From contig NZ_CP034885.1 in the NCBI RefSeq assembly GCF_005083105.1, positions 62,001-126,000 of the forward strand: a stretch of 64,000 nucleotides of DNA, in the 5' to 3' direction. The DNA comes from Buchnera aphidicola (Aphis nerii). Lineage in GTDB: Bacteria > Pseudomonadota > Gammaproteobacteria > Enterobacterales > Enterobacteriaceae. Both the position numbers and the translations under genes were made by a program. Under the pieces are notes generated by a model. It had not been told where the DNA came from and made no database searches. It saw only the letters and a list, made by a program, of their open reading frames with translations. Every line of letters begins with the position of its first letter. Positions within the stretch are counted from its first letter, which is position 1. Below, in pieces: positions 59,230-61,227 of the stretch.

Positions 59230-61227
59230 GTGATTATTGTAAGCGTTGTTTTACCTCTTCCAATTAGATCGTATTTTAACTATATATTACCATCTTCTAT
59301 GGAACCTATAATTGGTGCTCGTGTTATTGTGCCATTTCGTTCAAAAAATGTTATAGGTATTATTATTTCAATTAATACTATAAAAAATATTAACATTAAA
59401 AACTTTAAATTTATTAAACGTATTATTGATAATGAGTCAATTTTTAATGTTTCATTATTAAATATTTTAATATGGTTGAGTAAATATTATCAATATCCTA
59501 TAGGAAGTATATTTTCTTTAATTTTACCAAATATTTTAAGTTCTAAAGATATAGCATTAAGTAAAAATAAGATTTTTTTAAAAGATGATATAAATAAAGT
59601 TAATAAATTTATAATGAATAAAGTTTTTTTTGTAAGTAAAAAAAATTTATTTAAAATACGTCAAATATTAATCAAAAATTTTTTTATATCTTGGCTGATA
59701 TCAGAAAAAAATTTATATACAAAAATAAAATTTTATTTAGGACTCTTTAAAGAAATTTTAAAAAAAAATTTACAAATTTTAATTATTGTACCTTTTATTA
59801 AAGATGTATATAGAACATTGTTTTTTTTAAAACAATATTTTAATATACCAATCGATATTATCCACTCTAATTTAAGTGACGAGATATTTTTTAATGTATG
59901 GATAAAAACTAAAAATGGACAAAATGCTATTGTTATAGGAACAAAAACAAGCATTTTTTTTCCTTTTTTAAAATTAGGTTTAATTATTATTTATGAAGAA
60001 CACAATTTAATTTATAAAAATATAAAAAAATTTAGATTTAATATCAAAAATATAGCAATATTTCGAGCATATAAAGAAAATATACCTATTATTTTAGATT
60101 CAAACACACCTTCTGTAAAAACATTATATAATGTTGTTCAAAAAAAGATTTTTTGGATAAATTTTCATAAAAATCAAAGTTATTCAAATTTTCAACATCA
60201 AATTGTTAATTTAAAAAAAGAAAAAATAAGGGCTGGTTTGTCAGATACTTTAATTAATAATATTTTTGAAAACATAAAAAATAATTTTTCAGTTTTATTG
60301 ATTTATAATTCTTCTAATTTTATTTTTTTAGGTTTAATTTGTAAACATTGTAGTTGGGTTCCTAAGTGCAATATTTGCGATGGTTACTATGAAGTTAATG
60401 AATATAGTAATATTGTATTTTGTAAATATTGTTTAATTAATTTTAGAAAACCATTATTTTGTTATAATTGTAATTTTTCTCCATTAACTGTATTTAATTT
60501 TGGTATAAGAAAAATTAAAAAAGATATAAAAAAAATATTTCCTAATATACCATTATTATTTTTAATAAGTTTAAAAAATAATATAAAAAAAATAACACAT
60601 TTAAATTTTTTAAATTTTTCTATTGCTCATTTTGGAATTATTATTGCTACAGAAGAAATAGTGCAAAATTACTATTTTCCTAATGTACGACTAATTGGTT
60701 TAATTAATATTGATCATTACTTTTTTTCTTTAAATTTCCGTAATATTGAATATTTTGCTCAATTTTATTTTAATCTTATTAATTTAATACAAAAAAATTC
60801 AAAATTTTTAACTATATTGATTCAAACATCTATCCCAAATAATCAAGATTTAATAAATATATGTAATAAAAAATATTTATTTTGTGCTAGTAAAATATTA
60901 ACTTTAAGAAAAAAGTATTTTTTACCCCCATGTAGTTATCAAGTTATTTTATATTTTTACAGTAAAGATTTTAAACAAAGCTACACGTTTTTTAAATTTA
61001 TATATATTTTTTTAAAAAAACAATCTAAAAAAGATGGTATTTTATTATGGTTTGTAGGACCAGATCCTGTATTTAAAAAATTTAAAAAAAAATATTTCTA
61101 TAAATTATTAATTCAATGTTCATCACGTATTTATTTACATAAAATATTACGAATGTCACTTGAAGCTTCAAATTATTTTACTATGTTTAATTATGTTAAA
61201 TGGTTTATAGAGTTTGATTTGATTTAA
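59230..61227 (+). CDS. priA: PriA-like primosome protein with degenerate helicase motifs
   Basis: PriA recognises stalled forks and recruits PriB/DnaT/DnaB to restart replication. The GTG at 59230 gives MIIVSVVLPLPIRSYFNYIL, matching the family start. At 665 residues (enteric 732) the winged-helix region is cut by about half. All eight zinc cysteines remain (371, 374, 380, 383, 398, 401, 411, 414). The helicase motifs do not: the P-loop GVTGSGKT reads EKNLYTKI (159-166), DEEH reads YEEH (255-258), GSATP reads DSNTP, the GTQMLAKGHHFP motif reads ATEEIVQNYYFP, and the QVAGRAGR motif is gone. The frame is open throughout. It is 15 bp after nth. Confidence 0.93.
   Translation: MIIVSVVLPLPIRSYFNYILPSSMEPIIGARVIVPFRSKNVIGIIISINTIKNINIKNFKFIKRIIDNESIFNVSLLNILIWLSKYYQYPIGSIFSLILPNILSSKDIALSKNKIFLKDDINKVNKFIMNKVFFVSKKNLFKIRQILIKNFFISWLISEKNLYTKIKFYLGLFKEILKKNLQILIIVPFIKDVYRTLFFLKQYFNIPIDIIHSNLSDEIFFNVWIKTKNGQNAIVIGTKTSIFFPFLKLGLIIIYEEHNLIYKNIKKFRFNIKNIAIFRAYKENIPIILDSNTPSVKTLYNVVQKKIFWINFHKNQSYSNFQHQIVNLKKEKIRAGLSDTLINNIFENIKNNFSVLLIYNSSNFIFLGLICKHCSWVPKCNICDGYYEVNEYSNIVFCKYCLINFRKPLFCYNCNFSPLTVFNFGIRKIKKDIKKIFPNIPLLFLISLKNNIKKITHLNFLNFSIAHFGIIIATEEIVQNYYFPNVRLIGLINIDHYFFSLNFRNIEYFAQFYFNLINLIQKNSKFLTILIQTSIPNNQDLINICNKKYLFCASKILTLRKKYFLPPCSYQVILYFYSKDFKQSYTFFKFIYIFLKKQSKKDGILLWFVGPDPVFKKFKKKYFYKLLIQCSSRIYLHKILRMSLEASNYFTMFNYVKWFIEFDLI

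Follow-up and report, generated by a model that had tools for sequence, protein, structure and literature searches.

What becomes of a helicase once the residues that drive it are gone? This question is raised by priA of Buchnera aphidicola (Aphis nerii), which lies within a 64,000-nucleotide stretch of the chromosome (contig NZ_CP034885.1, positions 62,001 to 126,000; hereafter the window). An original prediction, made from the letters of the window, held that this gene had been kept by selection as a scaffold that loads the replisome, and that its motor had been discarded. We examined this claim by comparing the gene with its counterparts in the genus, in other reduced genomes and in free-living bacteria.

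A PriA protein with degraded motor motifs

The gene is flanked by nth and tyrS, and its product is recognisably PriA. The TIGR00595 profile scores it at 260.3 bits, above the cut-off of 230.35, which assigns it as a PriA orthologue, and the six PDB sequences that it matches are all PriA. Nine PRK05580 equivalog models also match, each below its own cut-off. The borders used to divide the gene into segments (Table 1) are those we take to delimit the PriA domains, and the roles given to individual motif residues are likewise assumed.

Table 1. Segments of priA in the window, with their positions in the 64,000-nucleotide stretch and, for motor motifs, the change from E. coli K-12 PriA.
Feature	Residues	Position	Strand	State and support
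priA, motor-dead PriA	665 aa	59230..61227	+	GTG start, stop codon included; open frame and PriA profiles
3'-end-binding domain (3'BD)	1-103	59230..59538	+	PF17764, E=1.4e-23, 82.9 bits; omega 0.116
Winged helix and linker remnant	104-144	59539..59661	+	PF21213 unmatched; alignment A1; omega 0.201
Ex-motif I (P-loop)	159-169	59704..59736	+	GVTGSGKTEVY now EKNLYTKIKFY; every glycine gone; K165 at the K230 position
Ex-motif Ia	186-195	59785..59814	+	alignment to E. coli PriA
Ex-motif II	253-263	59986..60018	+	IIYEEHNLIYK; DEEH now YEEH
Ex-motif III	290-298	60097..60123	+	DSNTPSVKT; GSATP now DSNTP; slowest segment, omega 0.028
Ex-motif IV	358-367	60301..60330	+	NRRGF now NSSNF; two arginines gone
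Cysteine-rich zinc region (CRR)	371-414	60340..60471	+	8/8 cysteines; omega 0.119
Ex-motif V	470-486	60637..60687	+	IIIATEEIVQNYYFPNV; IGTQMLAKGHHFPDV now IATEEIVQNYYFPNV; alignment to E. coli PriA
Ex-motif VI	512-525	60763..60804	+	QVAGRAGRAGK now NLINLIQKNSK; arginines gone; R584 position Leu in 34/36 genus copies
C-terminal domain (CTD)	566-665	60925..61224	+	PF18074 (PriA_C) 27.1 bits, barely above cut-off 26.9; omega 0.127

The original prediction placed the gene correctly and was right about its main feature, an open frame of 665 codons in which the motor motifs are degraded, as well as about the intact DNA-binding start, which we find to be a complete 3'BD, and about the eight zinc cysteines. 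Its statement that every motif had been replaced holds for the signatures of motifs I, IV, V and VI, but not for motifs II and III, in which EEH and S-TP remain. It had also described the winged helix as partly gone, and indeed the profile search with PF21213 found no match in the window protein, and the stretch comprising winged helix and linker is short in the window genome and its seven nearest relatives. The proteins of this group have 662-667 aa, compared with 693-741 aa for the remaining unbroken copies of the genus.

Only two of seven catalytic positions (K230 and E321) are retained, and the combination by which we would recognise an active SF2 helicase, namely P-loop glycines, the motif II aspartate and the motif VI arginines, is missing from the window protein. 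At residue 165 (window 59722-59724), the position of the P-loop lysine still encodes lysine, though the surrounding loop is unrecognisable. Of 29 CRR positions that are invariant in 31 free-living PriAs, 12 are retained, including all eight cysteines (hypergeometric p=1.2e-4); the other invariant CRR positions have diverged strongly, with four of 21 retained. An AlphaFold run on this PriA sequence alone gave a mean pLDDT of 34.2, too low for a usable model.

The degraded state is shared by the genus

PriA was found in all 36 genus genomes searched, and every copy has degraded motifs I, Ia, III, IV, V and VI together with all eight zinc cysteines. Relatives with intact motifs, which the original prediction had named as the sign of a recent local decay, are therefore absent from this set (0/36). 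The position of K230 is occupied by lysine in 34 copies and by arginine in two. Seven further genus labels in which tyrS lies beside PriA (g91, g92, g53, g31, g154, g19 and g120) also carry degraded copies. Identity to E. coli is approximately 25-32% for the genus PriAs, 78-80% for DnaB and 64-66% for DnaC.

One account of these data is that priA is decaying slowly toward loss, such that replication restart is nearly dispensable and PriA erodes while looking intact in most lineages. The low identity to E. coli is in keeping with this account, as are the broken frames of nine of the 36 genus copies, in each of which the overlap contains an A/T run of 8-12. Six of the nine breaks (L015, L017, L024, L025, L034 and L035) fall between the 3'BD and lobe 1 and leave fragments of 156-204 and 532-612 aa. 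At one Buchnera locus, slippage has been reported to act as a correction (PMC3164680), but a transcriptome study is reported to have seen no frame-restoring error (PMC5574713).

Losses of priA outside the genus also favor decay. PriA is absent from several sister genera with small genomes, and a search with A1 gave no profile match in 12 of 17 genomes, which had been picked mostly because they lack PriA. In G045 and G144, nth directly adjoins tyrS, a clean deletion. The interval of 2.8 kb that separates nth from tyrS in G053 holds a priA relic cut up by stops (L171:6774-8456), from which five plus-strand pieces exceed the HMMER inclusion threshold for the PriA profile (best E 1.7e-16). This relic had been missed by the whole-genome search and was found when the 20 kb locus was searched as 260 pieces. 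G053 retains dnaT and dnaC, and G198, which bears the same genus label, still has PriA. Genuine decay, when it can be seen, looks unlike the copies of the genus.

As a control we examined Mfd, another SF2 motor. Its P-loop, DEEH/Q, TATP and motif VI arginines are present in 25 of 25 aligned symbiont rows, including that of the window genome, and so the loss of motor motifs is specific to priA. Among 22 genus genomes in which both genes were examined, PriA is broken in six and Mfd in none inside the matched range (p=0.021), a comparison that is rough because many Mfd copies are N-terminally shortened. Specifically, the Mfd matches L148-L162 and L164-L167, from most genus genomes, begin only at E. 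coli residue 321-473. Their N-terminal part is thus absent or beyond recognition, yet every motor motif is intact.

Selection on the former motor

Codon substitution patterns argue against decay. Pairwise maximum-likelihood omega ranges from 0.073 to 0.193 (25 closest of 351 pairs among 27 unbroken genus copies). A joint fit to seven genus pairs that share no tree branch gave 0.116 for the lobes outside the motifs and 0.067 for the ex-motif segments, with 0.058 for tyrS and 0.078 for nth, so that omega of priA is close to that of its two neighbours; the same fit yielded the domain values in Table 1. Omega=1 is rejected for the ex-motifs, the rest of the gene and the winged helix (2dlnL of 600, 888 and 228, respectively). 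With an unbroken frame and an omega far from the value near 1 that the original prediction had proposed as the mark of a pseudogene, priA of the window is not a pseudogene.

The ex-motifs evolve more slowly than any other part of priA, with omega of 0.067-0.071 versus 0.118-0.128 elsewhere (p=2.9e-7 in the joint fit; p=9.8e-8 when refitted without tyrS and nth). This difference persists when any single pair is dropped and when motifs II and III are left out (p=1.4e-5), and individual ex-motifs range from 0.028 to 0.094. Site rates on a 27-row tree agree (0.73 versus 0.96, p=0.0005). Such constraint may be partly structural, because the motif segments presumably sit buried in the core of the lobes.

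A better argument comes from columns that have been fixed anew. We scored as new any residue that 90% or more of the genus copies share and that none of the 31 free-living PriAs has. These residues are enriched in ex-motif columns (11/81 versus 27/651, p=0.0015), where one of the 27 outside, M1V, merely reflects the GTG start. Examples are G355D, E232K and V581L (36/36 each), G256K (35/36) and R584L (34/36). Preferential loss of motif residues was not found among invariant lobe positions, since 22 of 69 in the motifs and 61 of 173 elsewhere in the lobes are retained (p=0.66).

Together with the absence of intact motors among the 36 relatives, the rejection of omega=1 supports that part of the original prediction in which a motor-dead PriA is maintained by selection. 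The other part, that the motor was simply discarded, does not survive: the expected contrast between constrained zinc and 3'-end-binding parts and relaxed lobes is absent (0.104 for the lobes, 0.121 for the binding parts), and the motor has been remodelled. Slow decay fits the frame breaks and the losses in other lineages, but it is at odds with the newly fixed residues and the eight cysteines found in every genus copy as well as with the omega values, and we regard it as unlikely, while still giving it real weight.

Motor loss in other reduced genomes

We extended the comparison to 57 rows, made up of PriAs from reduced genomes, the window PriA and one 3.6 Mb genome (L078 and L080 were omitted as duplicates of L206 and L207). 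At least six of the seven catalytic residues are present in 29 rows and fewer in 28, and all eight zinc cysteines are present in 56, while the remaining row is a fragment when read with the standard code. Several rows are only partly degraded: L079 retains GSGKT and has lost R584, L205 retains GSGKT and has lost both arginines, L204 lacks the P-loop and retains both arginines, and L206 lacks motifs I and VI and retains motif IV and most of motif V. Partly degraded PriAs differ in which motif goes first. Even a single label, g48, is mixed, with seven of seven catalytic residues in G360 (the 3.6 Mb genome) and G415, six in G215 and three in G082.

On a DnaB tree of 27 rows, the distribution of intact and dead motors requires at least four changes, a count that is weakly supported (five of 24 inner branches are strong) and for which G101 (5/7) was scored as dead and four rows lacking PriA were not counted. 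If our reading of the sequences is right, motor loss would have happened several times, each time with the zinc module kept.

Frames of 598-616 aa with eight cysteines are obtained for three PriAs of label g102 (L075, L217 and L219; genomes of 263-305 kb) only when TGA is read as a residue. In these genes TGA occupies one to three columns that hold tryptophan in E. coli and occurs at a few others, and TGG is absent from the frames, which points to UGA as a tryptophan codon in a tiny genome of the enterobacterial family.

Taking one copy from each of 16 motor-dead genus labels, we find K230, E322 and the eight cysteines in all 16 and E321 in 13, but G583, R584, G586 and R587 in none. The persistence of these charged residues, including the near-uniform lysine at position 230 in the window's own genus, raises the prospect that a weak nucleotide-binding switch remains, in which K230 and E321/E322 bind ATP or another ligand and hydrolysis is gone. 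The P-loop glycines, T231 and both motif VI arginines have been lost, however, and we consider such a switch distinctly improbable.

Partner proteins of the primosome

Measured against the E. coli-type PriA/PriB/DnaT restart pathway, the genus is complete for DnaT and DnaC (36/36 genomes each), but a search for PriB, for which the E. coli protein served as query, matched 0/36 (E≤0.01); a strongly diverged PriB could escape this search. PriC gave no match at E≤1 within the window.

Across the 57 rows, intact motors occur with PriB in 19 cases and without it in 10, and degraded motors with PriB in two (5/7 catalytic residues each) and without it in 26; no PriB was found in the 24 rows with four or fewer catalytic residues. 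By genus label the association has p=0.0006, or p=0.009 when the tyrS-syntenic labels are counted as one, in a test that leaves out the mixed label g48 and for which genome size is an obvious confounder.

PriB is described as docking on the CRR through Asp438, Ser481, Thr482 and His483 (PMC10175261). The planned exact test of this site, which called for both D438 and H483, found them in two of 21 PriB-bearing rows and in none of 34 without PriB (p=0.14). An acidic residue (D or E) at 438 is present in 21/21 rows with PriB versus 5/34 without (p=8e-11), a test that was chosen post hoc, ignores relatedness and omits L217 as a fragment; within the genus the acid persists in one of 36 copies. Its loss where PriB is missing supports our calls of PriB absence.

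Of 13 genus labels that carry dnaC, six have PriA and all six also have DnaT, against two of the seven that lack PriA (p=0.021); DnaT remains without PriA in G053 and G134. Four genomes with a degraded PriA (G040, G082, G098 and G122) have no match to DnaT, DnaC or PriB, and there PriA would need direct contact with DnaB, as proposed for D. radiodurans.

These patterns bear on whether PriA has left replication restart altogether to become an unrelated DNA- or RNA-binding protein. Such a change of role would be compatible with the missing PriB, with the post hoc finding at position 438 and with the new signature in the ex-motifs. Yet the parts that can still be recognised are those of fork recognition, namely the 3'BD, the CTD and the zinc ligands, and DnaT and DnaC have been retained alongside them, which makes a role of this kind very unlikely in our judgment.

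The original prediction relied on ATPase-dead E. coli PriA as a precedent. This precedent holds to the extent that such proteins, K230A included, are reported to load DnaB in vitro with PriB, DnaT and DnaC (PMC10175261). It falls short in that the helicase-dead priA300 allele depends on PriB, and its combination with a priB deletion is reported to cause severe defects (PMC9713433, PMC10175261). Because of these defects, the precedent alone is insufficient for a genome in which PriB was not found, and one must suppose that PriA reaches DnaB directly or by a rewired path.

A proposed ATP-free PriA

Taken together, these observations lead us to favor, with somewhat better than even confidence, the hypothesis that priA encodes a PriA that works without ATP, remaining bound to the fork and positioning DnaB, via DnaT and DnaC or directly, without PriB. 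In such a protein, fork recognition would fall to the 3'BD and CTD, and the CRR, held together by zinc, would join both helicase lobes in a body that has stopped cycling. The cleft that once took up ATP, putatively refilled with newly fixed residues around the retained K230 and E321/E322, may be held in one conformation by contact between these residues, and could offer the fork to DnaT and DnaC, which load DnaB, without help from PriB. Four features of this model are predictions: the protein does not hydrolyse ATP, it binds forks, it loads DnaB, and its cleft is locked in a single conformation. A need for K230 in such a scaffold has no support in E. coli, because K230A PriA still loads DnaB.

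More tentatively, the dead cleft might have been rebuilt, either as a new surface to which the DnaB loaders bind or as a fixed latch for them, taking over the job of the lost PriB and leaving a simplified, ATP-free PriA-DnaT-DnaC-DnaB route. Tiny symbionts that also lack DnaT and DnaC might run on PriA and DnaB alone, and the conversion might have taken place independently several times. This extension is a speculative possibility that we hold with low confidence. Points against an ATP-free PriA in general are the nine broken frames, the loss of PriA in sister genera and the presence of DnaT without PriA in G053 and G134.

If the ATP-free reading of the protein is true, then evolution has split the two jobs of PriA several times, retaining the zinc module and dropping the motor, which suggests that the lasting job of PriA is to place the copying machine rather than to unwind DNA. 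With a natural series of intact, half-lost and lost motors, available even within label g48, what PriA does apart from unwinding can be tested. A table of ATP-dependent functions published in 2019 gives Buchnera PriA (BU120) as the ATP-using helicase of the primosome (PMC6389857), an entry that would be wrong on our reading. No report of a motor-dead PriA in insect symbionts was found among the matches listed in the openly licensed literature, as far as the text of those sources was accessible.

Comparison with known PriA systems

A PriA pseudohelicase is a kind of protein already known from Deinococcus. PriA of D. radiodurans is reported to have no ATPase or unwinding activity and to retain DNA binding and interaction with DnaB (PMC4504706), and like the window protein it combines degraded motifs I and II with an otherwise retained PriA. 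The extent of the change differs: as described in that report, the outline of the D. radiodurans P-loop persists, with GKT altered to GRT, whereas the window PriA has lost the loop glycines and the signatures of motifs IV, V and VI. Moreover, the ex-motifs of the window PriA have been fixed anew, in a lineage that belongs to enterobacteria whose free-living members have intact motors. For the window PriA, the lack of ATPase and unwinding activity and the binding of DNA and DnaB are predictions.

A further resemblance is to the actinobacterial PriA-like proteins, described as ‘smaller and very divergent’ (PMC1193525). Their models (PRK14873) also represent a diverged PriA homologue and are among the weak NCBIfam matches of the window PriA, with 59.8 bits compared to 428.1 for proteobacterial PriA models.

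Another parallel is the E. coli laboratory variant K230R/K230A (priA300), also a motor-dead PriA and reported to be able to support primosome assembly in E. coli (PMC10175261). That variant carries a single change and depends on PriB, whereas the window PriA carries many changes, retains the very lysine that is altered in priA300, and resides in a genome in which PriB was not found.
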